Source of the DNA: Desulfomonile tiedjei
GTDB taxonomy: Bacteria; Desulfobacterota; Desulfomonilia; Desulfomonilales; Desulfomonilaceae
Direction of reading: 5' to 3'
DNA: 64,000 bases
Assembly (NCBI GenBank): GCA_016218715.1
Contig: JACRDG010000032.1
Location: forward strand, 1 to 64,000
Shown here: positions 4,721 to 63,935 of the stretch, one piece after another
Numbering within the stretch: the stretch's first letter is position 1
Layout: each line of letters begins with the position of its first letter
Program-made: the position numbers and the translations under genes
The notes under the pieces: model-generated
The model's input: only the letters and a program-made list of their open reading frames with translations
Told to the model about the DNA's origin: nothing
Databases searched by the model: none

Positions 4721-6187
4721 TTGCCGAAATTCGAGATCGTACACAAGAAAACCGGGGAAGTTATCTTCTCGGGGCGAGGCGGGTCCCTGAAAGAGCTGGT
4801 TCAGTCGGCCGCTACCGCGGGCGTGGATGCCTCCATCGCGGGACTGCTGTTCTCCAAACTGAAGAAGACATCGAAAGCCAGATTGTACGGGGCGGATCTG
4901 AGAGAGAAAGACTTGTCGGAGATAGACCTGACCGAAGCCGACATGACCGGTTCGGATTTCTCGTCCTCCAATCTCGAAGGATCGCTTCTGAACAAGGCCA
5001 GCCTGTCCCGGTCCACGTGGGTCAGGGCCAACCTGTCCCGATCCGCGCTCGTCGAAGCCGATCTTACGGAAGCCGACATGAAAGACGCGGATTTGACGAA
5101 AGCCGTTCTGGATGGAACCAATTTCACCGGCGCGAAGCTCATGGGGGCGAATCTTTCTGGTACGAGGATCGGCAAGGCCAACTTCACGCGAGCCGATCTC
5201 CAGGGTGCCCGGATGCAGTCCGCGGACGCATCCAAGGGCCAGTTGAGCGGCATCAACTTGGCCGGTGCGGACCTGTCGTGGGCGAATCTCTCCAAGTTGC
5301 GTATGGAGCGGTCGGATTTGAGCGGCGCGAATCTGGAGCGGTCGGATTTGAGCGGTGCGAAACTCATCGGCAGCAACTTCACCGGCGCGAATCTTACCAG
5401 CGCTAACCTTCAGGGGGCTGATCTGACCGGCGCCATCCTGGACGGTGCCGATCTATCCAGTGCGAACCTCACTGAAGCGATCATGAAGAATACCAAGGTG
5501 GTGAACGCGAAACTGGACGGAGCAAAACTGGTCAGGGCGGTCGGTCCCGGATGTGACCTCAGTGGTGCGGATTTGAGCGATGCGGACATCACTGCTGCGG
5601 ATTTCTCCTCGGGCCAACTCGTTGGGGCCACACTGTCGCGGGCGATTTCGCCGGGAATCAATTTGACCCGCGTTGACATGCGCAAAGCCACACTGCTCAA
5701 GGCCAACCTTTCCGAAGCCACCTTCGTTGCGGCTCAAATGCAGGAGGTCGATGCGAGGGGAGCTGTGCTCGAAAACGCCAACCTTTCCGAAGCAGATTTG
5801 ACCGGTGCGCATCTGGAGGAGGCAACGTTCCAGAAAGCGAAGTTGGTCTCCGCGGACCTGTCATCCGCTTCGTGCACGACCACGTCGTTCTATGATTCCG
5901 ACATGTCCAGTGCCAGGGCGCATGGCGCAGACTTCACCGACGCGGACATTCAGAACGCCAGGCTGAATGGCGCGGATTTTACGGGGAGCACCTTCAGCGG
6001 AGCCAATCTCAGCGGCGTGAAAATGACCGACGTTTGCTTTGTCAGGGCTGACATTACTCGTGCGAATTTTTCGTGGGCATATATGGAAAATGTCGATTTT
6101 TCAGGTGCGAAAGTTGCCGGCGCCAGTATGAGGGGAGCCAGCATCAAAAGCGTGAAAGGGATCAAGTTCAAGAAGCCCGCGCCGTAA
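4721..6187 (+). CDS. Large pentapeptide-repeat protein
   Basis: This is a 488-residue protein built almost wholly of A(D/N)LXX pentapeptide repeats from about residue 60 to the end, expected to fold as a long right-handed quadrilateral beta-helix. The frame is open back to 4607 (TTG in the previous stop). I choose TTG 4721 because AGGAG sits about 11 bases before it and the peptide before it is unlike the family. The first about 50 residues form a small non-repeat domain (FEIVHKKTGEVIF, then KELVQSAATAGVD). There is no signal peptide or membrane segment. Known repeat proteins of this kind include DNA-gyrase mimics, but most have no assigned role, and none is claimed here. Confidence 0.88.
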   Translation: MPKFEIVHKKTGEVIFSGRGGSLKELVQSAATAGVDASIAGLLFSKLKKTSKARLYGADLREKDLSEIDLTEADMTGSDFSSSNLEGSLLNKASLSRSTWVRANLSRSALVEADLTEADMKDADLTKAVLDGTNFTGAKLMGANLSGTRIGKANFTRADLQGARMQSADASKGQLSGINLAGADLSWANLSKLRMERSDLSGANLERSDLSGAKLIGSNFTGANLTSANLQGADLTGAILDGADLSSANLTEAIMKNTKVVNAKLDGAKLVRAVGPGCDLSGADLSDADITAADFSSGQLVGATLSRAISPGINLTRVDMRKATLLKANLSEATFVAAQMQEVDARGAVLENANLSEADLTGAHLEEATFQKAKLVSADLSSASCTTTSFYDSDMSSARAHGADFTDADIQNARLNGADFTGSTFSGANLSGVKMTDVCFVRADITRANFSWAYMENVDFSGAKVAGASMRGASIKSVKGIKFKKPAP

Positions 6188-16553: not shown

Positions 16554-17273
16554 ATGGATAGCGCGCCTCTCCAGGTCTCTCGGGACCAGTTCGGCACCCT
16601 GGGCTATTCGCTCAGGCGGTACCTGGTGGACGATTTCCACTTCCGCCACGTGGTGACGCTCCCCGAGGGAGGGCTCGTGCTGGACCTGGGCGGAAACCGG
16701 ATCCGCAAGAGGGGATTCTTCGACATAGATCAGTTCGGCCTTCAGGTCTTCTATGCCAACCTCTCCACAGCGAAGCAGCCTCACGTCCAAGCTGACGCGG
16801 GGGCGATCCCTTTCGACAGCGAGGTGTTCGACGCTGTGATCTGTGCGGAACTGCTCGAGCACGTGCCGCACCCGCCCGCGGTACTGGCTGAGGCGCATCG
16901 GGTGCTCCGGAAAGGCGGCGTGCTTCTCCTGTGCGTCCCGTTGCTGAACCGGATTCACGGCGATCCGCACGATTACGGCCGGTACACCGATTCTTACTGG
17001 TCGCATGCCCTGCAAACTGCCGGCTTCCGCGACACACGCATCGAAAAACAGGGTCGTTTCTGGTGCGTGCTGGTCGACATGGTACGAGACCTGGTCGTCC
17101 GGAAGACCGCTAGCGGCGTGCTCGCAAAACCGTCGGCGATTCGCCTTTTGGCCACCGTTATGGCAATGTGCAAGAGGAAGGCCCTGGAATGGGACGCCGT
17201 GGCGGATGACCAGGGAGGCCGGACCCCGGTGGGCTACACGACGGGATTTGGCATTACCGCGCGAAAAGCCTAG
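16554..17273 (+). CDS. Class I SAM-dependent methyltransferase
   Basis: This is a 239-residue protein starting at ATG 16554, four bases after the upstream stop; TTG 16536 is an in-frame alternative. The glycine-rich SAM motif LVLDLGG lies near residue 38, the acidic loop FDIDQF near 58, and the methyltransferase_11-type motif AVICAELLEHVPHP near 98, then LRKGGVLLLCVP. Its place between glycosyltransferases and next to a Wzt with a C-terminal domain suggests sugar O-methylation, perhaps as a chain cap. That role is an inference. Confidence 0.8.
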   Translation: MDSAPLQVSRDQFGTLGYSLRRYLVDDFHFRHVVTLPEGGLVLDLGGNRIRKRGFFDIDQFGLQVFYANLSTAKQPHVQADAGAIPFDSEVFDAVICAELLEHVPHPPAVLAEAHRVLRKGGVLLLCVPLLNRIHGDPHDYGRYTDSYWSHALQTAGFRDTRIEKQGRFWCVLVDMVRDLVVRKTASGVLAKPSAIRLLATVMAMCKRKALEWDAVADDQGGRTPVGYTTGFGITARKA

Positions 17274-17280
17274 TGCTGCT

Positions 17281-17444
17281 TTTCGGAAGTTCGATCGAGC
17301 GATTCCGGGAGCTTGGTGGGATAGGCATCTTGCCTGTCCATCGAGAAATGACAGGCGGGACGCCTGTCCCACCGAACAGCCAGTGAAGCCGCGGCCATGA
17401 ACTGAAACGGCGCTTCACCGGAATCCGCGACCGTGTTTGTGAAA
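17281..17444. repeat. Family A palindromic element, copy 3 (full)
   Basis: The core GGTGGGATAGGCATCTTGCCTGTC and its mirror GACAGGCGGGACGCCTGTCCCACC (17315-17373) are flanked by TTTCGGAAGTTCGATCG at the left and GACCGTGTTTGTGAAA at the right (17429-17444). The element fills the gap between two glycan genes and would place a strong double hairpin in the cluster transcript. Confidence 0.7.
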
Positions 17445-17484
17445 CGCAGCTATAGTACCGATCCGCTTACACAGTGACCGAAGA

Positions 17485-59391: not shown

Positions 59392-59498
59392 TACGGTGAC
59401 CGAAGGCTGCAAGCCGGCTCCGCTCCAATCGCAGATTGCTTCCGGCAACTGCCGCACTTCCGGTCCGCAGAGGCTCCACTTCACCTTCATGAAGAAGT

Positions 59499-59545
59499 GG
59501 TGCATCATGCACCATGGCAACGTTCATGCGGGTGCATCGTGCATC
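59499..59545. promoter_or_regulatory. Palindromic upstream activator sites for the sigma-54 promoter
   Basis: GGTGCATCATGCACC (59499-59513) is a perfect odd-length palindrome. A second related site, GGTGCATCGTGCATC (59531-59545), is centred 32 bases further, about three helical turns. Both lie about 75-125 bases ahead of the -24/-12 element, the usual distance for bacterial enhancer-binding proteins. Confidence 0.6.
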
Positions 59546-59621
59546 ATTACGCTCAGACCCTCCATGGGGACACCTCGCCGTTAATCCCTTCCCTACAAGC
59601 TTTCCGCCGAAATGAACGCGT

Positions 59622-59637
59622 TGGCACGCGAGTTGCT
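59622..59637 (+). promoter_or_regulatory. Sigma-54 (-24/-12) promoter
   Basis: TGGCACG-CGAG-TTGCT matches the consensus TGGCACGN4TTGCW at every fixed position. It lies 25 bases before the start of the NifX-domain gene at 59662, so transcription would begin about 12 bases before the ATG region. Confidence 0.85.
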
Positions 59638-59661
59638 TCCAGATGGTGGGAGCCGAGGACG

Positions 59662-60078
59662 ATGATCAGGATTGCTATTCCCGAACATCAAGGCCGAATT
59701 GCGCCGGTCTTTGACACATGCCAACGGATTCTCGTTTTCGCCCAGCAGGGTGATGGCGAGGCGGTCGTCACCCGCGAAGACTGGTCCGCAATCTCCCGTC
59801 AGGGACGAGCTATTCGTCTCAAGGAGCTGGGTGTCGAGGTGTTGCTCTGCGGAGGTATCAGTTGCGGGATCGAGGACCAGATTCATCTGCACGGCATCCG
59901 GCTCGTGTCGTGGTTGGCCGGCGATGTGCCGGCGATCCTGACCGCGTTCAGAAAAGGAAGGATCATGAACCCGGAATATGCGATGCCGGGGACGCTCCTC
60001 TGCAGGCAACGCCGGCAGATGCGGCGGCGCAGAAACCACCAGAATCAAAGCGGGAGCGCGAAAGCAAAGGAGAAATAG
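59662..60078 (+). CDS. NifX/NifB-type iron-molybdenum cofactor-binding domain protein with basic tail
   Basis: This is a 138-residue protein, the first gene behind the sigma-54 promoter. The frame opens at 59497, but ATG 59662 has GAGGAC upstream and starts the domain (MIRIAIPEHQGRIAPVFDTCQ). LKELGVEVLLCGGISCGIEDQIHLHGIRLVSWLAG (about 55-90) is the conserved second half. A basic tail (RQRRQMRRRRNHQNQ) ends the protein. Proteins of this domain hold or carry Fe-Mo clusters; in Desulfovibrio one forms part of the orange-protein complex. The basic tail is unusual and might bind nucleic acid or another subunit. Confidence 0.82.
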   Translation: MIRIAIPEHQGRIAPVFDTCQRILVFAQQGDGEAVVTREDWSAISRQGRAIRLKELGVEVLLCGGISCGIEDQIHLHGIRLVSWLAGDVPAILTAFRKGRIMNPEYAMPGTLLCRQRRQMRRRRNHQNQSGSAKAKEK

Positions 60079-60080
60079 TC

Positions 60081-60416
60081 ATGCCAGGGTCTGATAAGAC
60101 AGGACCATTGGGAGCCGGTCCCGGAACCGGTTGGGGTCTAGGTCGTTGCACGGTCGCGGCGAGAAGAGGAATTGCTGCATTGGGAGGAATCCTGCGGGGA
60201 GTCGGTCGCGGAGGTATGCCCCGCGGCGGAGGGAGGGGCCTGTGTTTTGGAGGTGCCCGTTTCCGGGGTGAGTCGAGTCCTTTCCCTGGCGGGCCGTCGG
60301 TGACTCCTGCGAAGGAGGCCGAGATTCTGCGGGCCGAATTGGCTGCTGCCAAGGAACAGTTGGCTGCAATGCAGGTCCGTCTGGAGGAGCTGGAAAAACA
60401 GAACCCGTCCCTGTGA
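60081..60416 (+). CDS. DUF5320-type glycine-rich protein
   Basis: This is a 111-residue protein; AAGGAG precedes ATG 60081, two bases after the NifX-domain gene. MPGSDKTGPLGAGPGTGWGLGRC is the DUF5320 hallmark, followed by a glycine/arginine-rich middle and a C-terminal coiled coil (KEAEILRAELAAAKEQLAAMQVRLEELEKQ). DUF5320 proteins are common beside NifX-domain and Mrp genes in anaerobes. The function is not established; the coiled coil suggests oligomer or complex formation. Confidence 0.78.
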   Translation: MPGSDKTGPLGAGPGTGWGLGRCTVAARRGIAALGGILRGVGRGGMPRGGGRGLCFGGARFRGESSPFPGGPSVTPAKEAEILRAELAAAKEQLAAMQVRLEELEKQNPSL

Positions 60417-60532
60417 GGGTCGGTTTGGGGTCAGTCGGGCATCCGCCGATCGGCGCGATGGGTCAGCAGTCTCCGACGGTTATGCCCGACGGTCCCCTGA
60501 TTTGTTGGGATCAAGTACTCCTTTTCGCAGAT

Positions 60533-60687
60533 TCGGTCCCGCGTTTCGAGGAGCATGGTGGGACAGGCACCTTTCCCGTTCATCGAGAAATGACAGGAAA
60601 GGCGTCTGTCACACCAATACAGCCAGAGAGGCCGCGGCAATGAACGGAAACCGCGTCCCACAGAAATACGCGATCGTGTTTGAGAAA
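60533..60687. repeat. Family A palindromic element, copy 7
   Basis: GGTGGGACAGGCACCTTTCCCG and GACAGGAAAGGCGTCTGTCACACC (60557-60615) are flanked by TTTTCGCAGATTCGGTC and CGATCGTGTTTGAGAAA. It lies between the DUF5320 and Mrp genes and could attenuate or process the transcript there. Confidence 0.65.
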
Positions 60688-60737
60688 CCGAGAACTACGG
60701 AAACCGACTGCACGTGAGAAGGAAGCTAAGCGAAGAC

Positions 60738-61634
60738 ATGGCGAGAAACAACGATTGTTCGTCAGAAAAATCATGCGGCGGCTGCGATTCCGCCATTTCC
60801 TGCGATACGCAGGCACAACAGGAGCACATGGACGCCCGCCTGGCGGCGGGTCTTTCCACCATCAGGCATCGTATCGTGATCATGAGCGGCAAAGGAGGGG
60901 TCGGCAAATCGACCGTTGCGGCAAACCTCGCTCGGGCACTTGCTGCGATGGGAAAGAAGGTGGGGATTCTCGACGGGGACGTTCACGGGCCGAATATACC
61001 CAAGATGTTGGGATTGGAAGGGGCGAGCCCCGAGGCGGGACCGTCCGGGCTCCTTCCCCTGGAGGCGGCTCCGGGTCTGAAGGTTATGTCCATGGCGTTT
61101 CTTCTGCCCAATTCAGACACGCCGGTGGCGTGGCGGGGGCCGATGAAGCATACCTTGTTTCAGCAATTCGTCTCGGACGTGCAATGGGGTGACCTGGACT
61201 ACCTCATCGTGGATCTACCCCCGGGAACCGGCGATGAGCCGATGAGTATTGCCCAGATCCTCGGAAAGCCCTTGTGGGCGATAGTCGTGACGACACCGCA
61301 GGACGTGGCGCTTCTGGATTCCCGAAAATCCGTGGTTTTCGGCGGCAGCCTCGACATGAACATGCTCGGTATCGTTGAGAACATGAGCGGCCTCGTGTGC
61401 CCCCACTGCGCGGAGGAGATCGACCTGTTCAAGAGGGGCGGCGGCGAGAGGGCAGCTCGGGAACTCATGGTGCCGTTTCTCGGAGCGATCCCCATCGATC
61501 CCCGTGTTGTCATCGCGGGAGACGCCGGCATTCCTGTAGCTTCAGTTGACCCTGATGCATCGGTCTCACGGATCTTGCGCGAATTGGCCGAGCACATCGA
61601 CGAGACGGTGAACAACCATCACGAGCCGGTCTAG
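60738..61634 (+). CDS. mrp: Mrp/NBP35-family P-loop ATPase
   Basis: This is a 298-residue protein. ATG 60738 is preferred over GTG 60714; neither has a strong ribosome site. Four cysteines near the N-terminus (CSSEKSCGGCDSAISC) resemble the NBP35-type cluster motif. The deviant Walker A MSGKGGVGKSTVAANLA lies near 50, LIVDLPPGTGDEP near 158 and the bridging CPHC near 222. It binds and transfers 4Fe-4S clusters in the cytoplasm. In the Desulfovibrio orange-protein system Mrp-like ATPases act with NifX-domain proteins. It is separated from the upstream genes by a repeat element. Confidence 0.9.
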   Translation: MARNNDCSSEKSCGGCDSAISCDTQAQQEHMDARLAAGLSTIRHRIVIMSGKGGVGKSTVAANLARALAAMGKKVGILDGDVHGPNIPKMLGLEGASPEAGPSGLLPLEAAPGLKVMSMAFLLPNSDTPVAWRGPMKHTLFQQFVSDVQWGDLDYLIVDLPPGTGDEPMSIAQILGKPLWAIVVTTPQDVALLDSRKSVVFGGSLDMNMLGIVENMSGLVCPHCAEEIDLFKRGGGERAARELMVPFLGAIPIDPRVVIAGDAGIPVASVDPDASVSRILRELAEHIDETVNNHHEPV

Positions 61635-61925
61635 GAGGCGGTTGCGTAACGCAATGCTTTCCAGTAATCGCAGCAGGGTGGTGTCGATTGAGACAATGCA
61701 TCTTTCAAGGCTGCCACCTGAAAAGTTTAGAATGTCAGCCTCATAGGAGCCTCCAGATCGAAGCCGGCCGTGTGCTTCGCTGACCTGCCATCATTTCTCC
61801 GATGAGTCAGGTTGCGCGACAGGCTCCTGGAGAAGGTGTCGCAACAGCTCGCGGGTGCGACGCCGTTCAGCAAAGTTCAGACTGCCCGAAATCAAATATT
61901 ACGATTCTAAAGGAGATTCTTACCG

Positions 61926-62306
61926 ATGTTTTCCAAAACCATAGCCGTACCGTCCATGCACCCGGGAGGACTCGACGCGATGCGTTCCGGGCACTTCGGG
62001 CATTGTGACGTCTTCACGCTGATACAAGTGGAAAACGGCCAGATTCGCGACGTGTCCGTTCTCCAAAACCCTCCGCACCAACAGGGAGGATGCCAGGCGC
62101 CTGTCAATCTGCTCCATCAGAGCCAGGCAGAGGCCTTAATCGTGGGCGGAATCGGAATGAGGCCTCTTATGGGGTTCCACCAGGCGGGGATCGAGGTCTA
62201 TTACGGCCCGGAAGGCGAGACCGTCGGGGCCGTGGTCGATGATCTACTCCAGGGAAAGCTTGCTCTGATCCAGGCAAACCAGGTTTGCGGCGGCGGCCAA
62301 TTCTGA
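61926..62306 (+). CDS. NifX/NifB-type iron-molybdenum cofactor-binding domain protein
   Basis: This is a 126-residue protein; AAAGGAG precedes ATG 61926. The start KTIAVPSMHPGGLDAMRSGHFGHCDVFTLIQ has the family SxHFGxC pattern, and ALIVGGIGMRPLMGFHQAGIEVYYG is the conserved second half. HQQGGCQAPVNLLHQ and CGGGQF add cysteines that may bind a cluster. It follows mrp by about 290 gene-free bases, which hold a perfect TTGCGTAACGCAA palindrome at 61642-61654. Confidence 0.87.
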   Translation: MFSKTIAVPSMHPGGLDAMRSGHFGHCDVFTLIQVENGQIRDVSVLQNPPHQQGGCQAPVNLLHQSQAEALIVGGIGMRPLMGFHQAGIEVYYGPEGETVGAVVDDLLQGKLALIQANQVCGGGQF

Positions 62307-62328: not shown

Positions 62329-62688
62329 ATGAAAATCGCAGTAACGTCTACGGGAAGGGAGATAGGCTCCCGGATGGACCCCCGATTCGGCAGGGCGCAG
62401 TACATAGTGATCCTGGATGAGGGCGGAACGATCCTGGAGGTTGTGGACAACTCGCAAAACCTGAACGCCATGAAAGGAGCCGGCATTCAGGCGGCGAAGC
62501 TCATAGCCGACCGCAAGGTCGATGTGCTCATGACCGGACACTGCGGTCCGAATGCGTTCACCACACTCAAGGCTGCGGGGATAAAGGTCGCGGTCGAGCA
62601 ATCAGGCACGGTGGAAGAAGCGTTGGACCGCCTCAATCGAGGCGAAGCGAAGTTTGCCGATCAGCCGAATGTCGAAGCCCACTGGTAG
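62329..62688 (+). CDS. NifX/NifB-type iron-molybdenum cofactor-binding domain protein
   Basis: This is a 119-residue protein with GGAGG five bases before ATG 62329, 22 bases after the previous gene. MKIAVTSTGREIGSRMDPRFGRAQYIVILDE and VLMTGHCGPNAFTTLKAAGIKVAVE are classic for the domain; the RFGRA motif and the TGHCGPNAF cysteine fit proteins that carry Fe-Mo-type clusters. The third such gene in the region, it may form a complex with its neighbour. Confidence 0.88.
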   Translation: MKIAVTSTGREIGSRMDPRFGRAQYIVILDEGGTILEVVDNSQNLNAMKGAGIQAAKLIADRKVDVLMTGHCGPNAFTTLKAAGIKVAVEQSGTVEEALDRLNRGEAKFADQPNVEAHW

Positions 62689-62871
62689 CGACTTGGTGCG
62701 TCCGCCCAAGGGCGCAAGGTCGTGGCGCTCGGGCGGTGTTGCTTGGCGAGGAATCTCCTCCTCCTCAGCCAGTGGAAGGGGCTTGAGAAACCCGCGTTCA
62801 CGGGAGACGGACGGTCTCAAGCCCGCTTCCACATTATTGTGCACCAGGGAACGAAGCGGGATGTAGTGCCC

Positions 62872-63366
62872 ATGGATGTCACCTTCTTCTCTGCGATCCC
62901 CTGGAGTTCGGTAACAGCCGGGGCGATTCTGATCTTCCTGCTGATCGGCGGATGGACCTGGTTCACGGCCAGGTCGGACCCTGAGCGAGGGACGATTGAC
63001 GCTCCCGATGCGACAGCTTTTCTCCGGGGGAATTGCGGCGACGCGATGAAGATCTCGCTCAGGTTTTCCCAGGACCGGGTGGTCGAAGCGAAGTACTGGA
63101 CCGATGGCTGCCGAATGAGCAGCGCATGCGGGGCCGCGGCTGCCAGAGTGGCTCTACACAAGACCCCTGAAGAGATAGCAGACATCGACCACGTCGCCAT
63201 CGAGAGAGAAGTGGGCGGACTCCCCGATGAGGAGCTGCACTGTGCGACCCTTGCTGCCGGAACGTTGCAGGAAGCGGTCAGGCACTATCTCGTGGGAGAC
63301 GCACAAGCATCCTCGGCTGGCCCCAGGCTCAAGATGAAACCAAGTGCTGACAGGGAGTCCGGTTGA
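62872..63366 (+). CDS. NifU-like iron-sulfur scaffold with N-terminal membrane anchor
   Basis: This is a 164-residue protein. ATG 62872 is the most likely start, though the frame is open to 62722 and no strong ribosome site is seen. Residues about 10-32 form one membrane segment (VTAGAILIFLLIGGWTWF). The rest follows the NifU/IscU N-terminal fold: FLRGNCGDAMKISLRF near 50, YWTDGCRMSSACGAAAARVAL near 78 and LPDEELHCATLAAGTLQEAVRHYL near 118, giving three cysteines at scaffold positions. A membrane-fixed scaffold is unusual. It probably serves the same cluster-handling set. Confidence 0.78.
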   Translation: MDVTFFSAIPWSSVTAGAILIFLLIGGWTWFTARSDPERGTIDAPDATAFLRGNCGDAMKISLRFSQDRVVEAKYWTDGCRMSSACGAAAARVALHKTPEEIADIDHVAIEREVGGLPDEELHCATLAAGTLQEAVRHYLVGDAQASSAGPRLKMKPSADRESG

Positions 63367-63410
63367 GCCGGTGCCTCGTTTCATACGGTCGGTAACGCTT
63401 GTTGGGCAGC

Positions 63411-63485
63411 CTTGGTGGGACAGGAATCCCGCGCGTCCACGGATGACGGGCATTGACGCGACGCGCGGGCGTGCCCCACCAAGGC
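63411..63485. repeat. Family A palindromic element, copy 8 (diverged)
   Basis: CTTGGTGGGACAGGAATCCCGCGCGTCC and GACGCGCGGGCGTGCCCCACCAAG face each other, keeping the GGTGGGACAGG outer arms but with a different inner stem. A left end TTTCATACGGTC is seen at 63379. It lies in the 323-base gap before fmdB, which holds nothing else recognised. Confidence 0.6.
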
Positions 63486-63689
63486 CGCCCGTCTCAGCCC
63501 CGAATGATGCGGCGACCTCACCTTGGCGCAGGAACCTGCATCATTCGGGGTATTTTATCGTATCCTTCCCCATCATGATTCCAGCCGGGTTGACTCGGTC
63601 AAGATAATAGTGGAGAATTTCGAACGGGCCGCTCATCTTGAAAGCCTGATCCAGTAGCCGAGAAAGAGCGTCCCAAGAAAGGTCAACTG

Positions 63690-63935
63690 ATGCCGATCTA
63701 CGAATACCTATGTGCGGAATGCGGGCATGTGAGCGAACTCCTCGTGGGAATCGGGAGGAACTCGGATGACCTCGTTTGCGCGTCTTGTGGTGCAACCGGA
63801 CTGAAGCAACTGATGTCCGCGCCGGTTGTATCGATCAATGACGGACCTGCAGGACACGCGGCCGGTTCCACTTGCTGCGGGAGCAACCCGTCAAACAAAG
63901 GGTGCATCCCCGGGAGCTGCTGCGGCTCTTCGTGA
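63690..63935 (+). CDS. FmdB-type zinc-ribbon protein
   Basis: This is an 81-residue protein. MPIYEYLCAECGHVSELL and LVCASCGATGLKQLMSAPV give the FmdB zinc ribbon with two CxxC pairs (about 8-11 and 30-33). The C-terminus is rich in Cys and Gly (CCGSNPSNKGCIPGSCCGSS), common in anaerobe members. FmdB was first named as a regulator of formamidase expression; the role of most members is unknown. The start has only a weak AAGAAAGG-like site. No gene is seen from 63936 to the edge. Confidence 0.87.
   Translation: MPIYEYLCAECGHVSELLVGIGRNSDDLVCASCGATGLKQLMSAPVVSINDGPAGHAAGSTCCGSNPSNKGCIPGSCCGSS

Follow-up and report, generated by a model that had tools for sequence, protein, structure and literature searches.

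Toward its end, the window analyzed here (a stretch of 64,000 nucleotides of Desulfomonile tiedjei DNA, part of the contig designated C108) carries a collinear set of genes that reaches to about position 63935, with intergenic gaps of ~190 to 320 bp (Table 1). A preliminary description of this DNA had ended the feature at 60416, which takes in the first two genes but leaves out the rest of the set. It had assigned a NifX domain to the first gene product, and a match to PF02579 agrees with this, albeit below the curated cut-off and for a divergent protein. The term "orange-protein-like," also used there, applies to the NifX/MrpORP families as a whole, whereas assignment as a bona fide orange protein (ORP) is weak for any one of the NifX proteins. 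Of the two halves of MrpORP, the ATPase half is matched by the Mrp protein and the C-terminal ORP half by NifX2; MrpORP appears to be present in the window as two genes. The NifU_N protein appears to carry a hydrophobic segment at its N terminus, which is unusual in a soluble scaffold, and two strong inverted repeats (63404-63490 and 63498-63550) lie between its gene and the FmdB gene.

Table 1. Genes and regulatory elements of the locus, with the candidate activator gene (window coordinates unless a contig is given)
Feature	Coordinates	Strand	Basis and remarks
Enhancer site 1, GGTGCATCATGCACC	59499-59513		Core TGCA-N3-TGCA 59501-59511; tandem layout kept upstream of orthologs
Enhancer site 2, GGTGCATCGTGCATC	59531-59545		Core TGCA-N3-TGCA 59533-59543; 32 bp from site 1
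Sigma-54 -24/-12 element, TGGCACGCGAGTTGCT	59622-59637	+	Only exact match in window; conserved in 35/44 orthologs
NifX1, divergent NifX/Nitro_FeMo-Co-domain protein, first gene	59662-60078	+	PF02579, E = 1e-4, below curated cut-off
DUF5320 Gly-rich small protein	60081-60416	+	PF17253, 5e-18
Mrp/NBP35-type P-loop ATPase (Fe-S carrier)	60738-61634	+	PF10609, 2e-93; NF041136 positions 1-254
NifX2, separate gene	61926-62306	+	NF041136 positions 277-365, 1e-15; PDB 2wfb (ORP), E = 0.0018
NifX3, NifX/Nitro_FeMo-Co-domain protein	62329-62688	+	PF02579, 7e-22
NifU_N scaffold-like protein	62875-63366	+	PF01592, 5e-18; start inferred, mechanical ORF from 62722
FmdB-type zinc-ribbon protein, possible end of gene set	63690-63935	+	Profile match
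Candidate activator, 490 aa	C80:75839-77311		PAS 63-164; GAFTDA-type AAA+ 183-348; Fis-type HTH 442-483

Scans of the region gave no sigma-70-like plus-strand promoter before 63590 and reported no terminator-like site on the plus strand. Cotranscription past the DUF5320 gene is a plausible prediction. Dispersed repeats occupy the gaps at 60417-60737, 61635-61925, and 62689-62874 and may break the operon; they share 75 to 78% identity with other copies (window 17272-17445, L042:11477-11652, L141:9149-9261 and 5711-5820, L120:2853-2967, and L029:490-688).

Ahead of NifX1 lies a sigma-54 element of the form TGGCAC-N5-TTGCT with the correct GG-N10-GC spacing. From it, transcription is predicted to start at about 59648; the sequence GAGGA (59655-59659) stands ahead of the NifX1 ATG. 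The element is the only zero-mismatch match on either strand of the 64 kb, compared to a mean of 0.03 exact elements in dinucleotide shuffles (3 of 100 shuffles contained one). When two mismatches are allowed, the pattern is no commoner than chance (21 in the window versus 24.5 expected), so that it is the exactness of the match, together with its conservation, that makes the case for a promoter. The genome also encodes sigma-54, as rpoN is recognized by a PF04552 match at C4:188314-188787 (E = 5e-61). The consensus with its spacing, rpoN, and upstream sites together with an AAA+ activator are thus all found in this genome, and the pairing of activator and sites is suggested by synteny in relatives.

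The two upstream sites are dyads with perfect TGCA-N3-TGCA cores exactly 32 bp apart; the distance from the start of the core to the -24 element is 121 bp for site 1 and 89 bp for site 2. These results uphold the preliminary description, which had reported a -24/-12 consensus at this position, a palindrome with a related site 32 bases on, and the classic enhancer distance. The central bases of the two sites are TCA and TCG, and the outer bases of site 1 are GG/CC. Because GGTGCATCATGCACC occurs only once in the 5.55-Mb genome, the exact 15-mer was dropped as a genome-wide motif; the motif that underlies it is a tandem TGCA-N3-TGCA dyad. A scan for the IHF consensus gave one 8/9 match, at 59611, overlapping the promoter, and none between enhancer and promoter. 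On the minus strand, the inverted repeat at 59498-59514 is also scored as a weak hairpin of the terminator type, and the palindrome might conceivably be such a terminator, or a repressor or sigma-70-associated operator, with no role in sigma-54 control. We consider this very improbable, as there is no convergent minus-strand gene in need of a terminator at that place and no sigma-70-like plus-strand promoter near the dyads. Moreover, the dyad is present twice at 32 bp, many genomes have kept it ahead of sigma-54 elements, and it is found again with the same geometry at the C8 operon described below.

The preliminary description had made its reading depend on the presence of rpoN, reported above, and on conservation in relatives, and both checks came out in its favor. 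Orthologs of NifX1 were found in 104 of the 198 relative genomes searched, and 44 upstream regions from 14 families were compared, with 200 dinucleotide shuffles as the null. A strong sigma-54 element occurs within 125 bp upstream of NifX1 at 35 of the 44 loci (shuffles, mean of 0.4 and maximum of 3), and tandem dyads spaced 31 to 33 bp apart (14 or more of the 16 core positions matching) occur at 12 of the 44 (shuffles, 0.01); as the loci share common descent, the counts measure conservation and are not independent events. With 14 families represented and NifX1 orthologs sharing only 29 to 58% identity, mere lack of divergence is an unlikely cause. In a large co-directional NifX1 subclade, the sigma-54 element is retained but the dyad is not, which indicates that the enhancer is lineage-specific. 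In genome G008, the dyads are degenerate.

Across the 198 genomes, the pattern TGCA-N3-TGCA-N20-22-TGCA-N3-TGCA (spacing of 31 to 33) occurs in 19 places in 14 genomes, compared to four places for a control pattern in which the gap is shifted to 25 to 27. By our own count, the downstream gene is NifX1 or Mrp/MrpORP at 11 of the 19. It is barely conceivable that the promoter and dyads are chance matches to a loose consensus. The chance-level frequency of two-mismatch elements would fit such a reading, but the single exact match against 0.03 expected, the element at 35 of 44 loci, and the 19 against 4 places speak against it, and the conservation data already contradict it. Within the D. tiedjei genome, exact tandem dyads are confined to three places (the window, C8:38047, and C115:12052), and a tandem dyad at C80:98524 carries one mismatch. 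One dyad at 72 to 101 bp before TGGC-N8-TGC is likewise found only at the window, C8, C80, and C115. The C80 dyads at 98.5 kb (L143) belong to an operon for a small cytochrome c, a TAT-signal protein, and a membrane protein; a counterpart operon in G005 (C1:5551 kb, L144) shares its 141/109/32 geometry, so that the arrangement occurs in two genera.

The genome contains over 30 full-length genes for sigma-54 activators. The window has no gene for an enhancer-binding protein, and the only PF00158 matches on the contig are at 363 and 372 kb; the activator had been expected outside the window, and a candidate was located on another contig, C80. In most relatives, an activator gene (mostly PAS-AAA-HTH) is directly beside NifX1. 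In a tree of the relatives' and own-genome activators, all of the NifX1-adjacent ones fall into one clade (support of 0.93), whose only member from this genome is the C80 gene, unlinked to the window. Within that clade, seven Desulfomonilaceae proteins group together (support of 0.998), and the C80 activator is 67 to 77% identical to its orthologs in the family. The orthologs in G003, G005, and G010 are divergent from NifX1, and those in G008, G001, and G002, like the C80 gene, lie apart from NifX1 on the contigs at hand. Three cysteines of the PAS domain (97, 106, and 110; C-x8-C-x3-C) are invariant in 25 of 25 aligned clade members but are shared by two further activators encoded in this genome, and so are not clade-specific. 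They suggest that the domain may sense through an Fe-S cluster, a metal, or a thiol/redox reaction. Two other activators were set aside because they fall outside the clade: a long PAS activator beside a NifX gene (C78:133.8-136 kb, L039), considered as a local activator, and own_L005, a different activator, of the nif cluster at C78:98-112 kb (L038). An exact sigma-54 element at C80:79105 (L113:12106) is preceded by two tandem activator genes and followed by genes for a response regulator and a likely sensor kinase.

On contig C8, dyads with a 32-bp pitch begin 121 and 89 bp before TGGCACAGAAGCTGCA, reproducing the geometry of the window base for base. The operon behind them encodes two MinD-type ATPases (CbiA/ParA), each with two ferredoxin motifs (Fer4), together with an Fe-S assembly protein of the DUF59 family. 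These products fit what has been described for Orp3 and Orp4 of Desulfovibrio vulgaris (PMC6345978), and the occurrence of the same enhancer before such an operon supports the earlier proposal of the same kind of control as that of the D. vulgaris orange-protein operons. In relatives such as G005 and G010, MinD-type genes follow NifX3/NifU within one cluster. The simplest account is that an ancestral cluster was split into the C108, C8, and C80 fragments and that both target fragments kept the enhancer. Given the identical enhancer geometry, we predict that this genome most likely has a dispersed regulon, comprising the window and C8 operons with the activator at C80. The broken-up cluster amounts to a natural experiment, and the retention of the enhancer and its geometry by both fragments argues that the genes act together.

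The core motif alone singles out no one activator, as the core dyad also occurs in the C115 family. There, a two-component activator beside a histidine kinase has TGCA-N3-TGCA sites before the kinase gene (C115:12052-12094, L142); counterparts occur at Desulfomonilaceae loci L145, L255 to L257, L260, and L270, and a KdpA-like gene comes next after the locus in this genome and in G017. The dyads in the window might thus serve another activator, for example the two-component-type C115 protein (own_L021), at a promoter that is real, while the C80 protein regulates something else. The C115 sites share the tandem arrangement at 32 bp beside a two-component regulator, conserved in the family, and the sigma-54 promoter ~1.8 kb downstream of the C80 activator is a possible local target of that protein. 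We nevertheless think this unlikely. In relatives, it is C80 orthologs, not C115 orthologs, that are divergent from NifX1 next to these dyads; furthermore, the outer bases at C115 are of the TT/AA type and the distances there are 105/73, whereas the window and C8 sites have GG outer bases and distances of 121/89. The GG/CC outer bases and the distance to the promoter are all that separates the window and C8 sites from those of C115.

We therefore favor the C80 protein, and predict with considerable confidence that the sigma-54 promoter of the locus is functional and has an enhancer of two sites, served by the C80 PAS activator that the locus shares with the C8 operon. The activator most likely binds both dyads on one face of the helix, as 32 bp is about three turns, and would then loop to the RNA polymerase-sigma-54 complex at 59622-59637. 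A signal, perhaps an Fe-S, metal, or redox cue, would reach the PAS domain and lead to ATP hydrolysis and opening of the promoter at ~59648. Expression of the NifX1-DUF5320 genes, and probably of the Mrp-NifX2-NifX3-NifU-FmdB genes behind them, would follow, providing proteins of an Fe-S/orange-protein type, and the same activator most likely drives the C8 operon through its identically spaced enhancer. Genes that relatives mostly keep in one cluster would thus be spread over three unlinked loci here and remain under common control. The proposed activator-enhancer pair is testable and belongs to an orange-protein/MrpORP Fe-S system outside Desulfovibrio.

Close counterparts already known are orp1 and orp2 of D. 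vulgaris Hildenborough, sigma-54 operons with palindromic sites and a single-component activator, DVU2106 (PMC3897727, PMC4641369, and PMC6345978). The present loci resemble them in their sigma-54 promoters, in palindromic activator sites ~90 to 130 bp upstream, in a single-component activator with a GAFTDA loop (present in both DVU2106 [PMC4641369] and the C80 protein), and in their complement of Mrp, NifX/ORP-type proteins, and MinD-type ATPases, the last being Orp3/Orp4-like, with two ferredoxin motifs and the same enhancer geometry, at C8. In D. vulgaris, however, two divergent operons flank the activator gene, whereas here the operons are at C108 and C8 and the activator is at C80; MrpORP is fused there, whereas Mrp and the ORP-type domain are separate genes in the window. 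The window also has the additional NifX1, DUF5320, and NifU genes, and no convincing IHF site was seen between enhancer and promoter. As the operons here do not diverge around the activator gene, MrpORP is not fused in the window, and DVU2106 was compared by its GAFTDA motif, we file the system as a variant of orp-type sigma-54 control, distinct from the D. vulgaris system proper.

The LuxO-qrr enhancers of Vibrio, TTGCAW3TGCAA (PMC11443567), likewise have a TGCA-N3-TGCA core, often as two sites, with a sigma-54 promoter downstream. The sites in the window differ from the LuxO type in the outer bases of site 1 (GG/CC versus TT/AA), in centers that are not W3, in their strict 32-bp spacing, in a PAS-type activator instead of one with a receiver domain, and in an Fe-S/ORP-type operon as the target instead of small RNAs. 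Since LuxO and the C115 family use the same core, this dyad is common to several activator types.

Also close are loci of other anaerobes at which a PAS-sigma-54 activator stands beside NifX1-DUF5320 (for example, Pseudodesulfovibrio L173 and Desulfomonile L209). They share with the window an orthologous or clade-related activator, NifX1, and a sigma-54 element, and they differ in that the activator adjoins NifX1, whereas it is unlinked here; the co-directional PAS-activator/NifX1 loci of other anaerobes are without the window-type dyad. The C80 protein belongs with these activators by its place in the one clade and by the three invariant PAS cysteines. More tentatively, and with somewhat less than even confidence, we suggest that a module widespread in anaerobes uses a PAS activator with a C-x8-C-x3-C sensor of Fe-S, metal, or redox state to control NifX/Mrp/MinD genes for Fe-S or metal-cofactor delivery through lineage-specific enhancers. 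In the present lineage, it would take the form of a trans-acting regulon of unlinked operons (C108, C8, and possibly C80 at 98.5 kb) with tandem TGCA-N3-TGCA at a fixed 32-bp pitch. At the Pseudodesulfovibrio activator loci examined, the NifX1 arrangement is present, no classical orp cluster was seen, and tandem dyads occur at another target. There (L248:8073-8118), an activator of the clade is divergent from an uncharacterized gene, with a tandem dyad and a sigma-54 element, which indicates that the targets of this activator clade go beyond NifX1.
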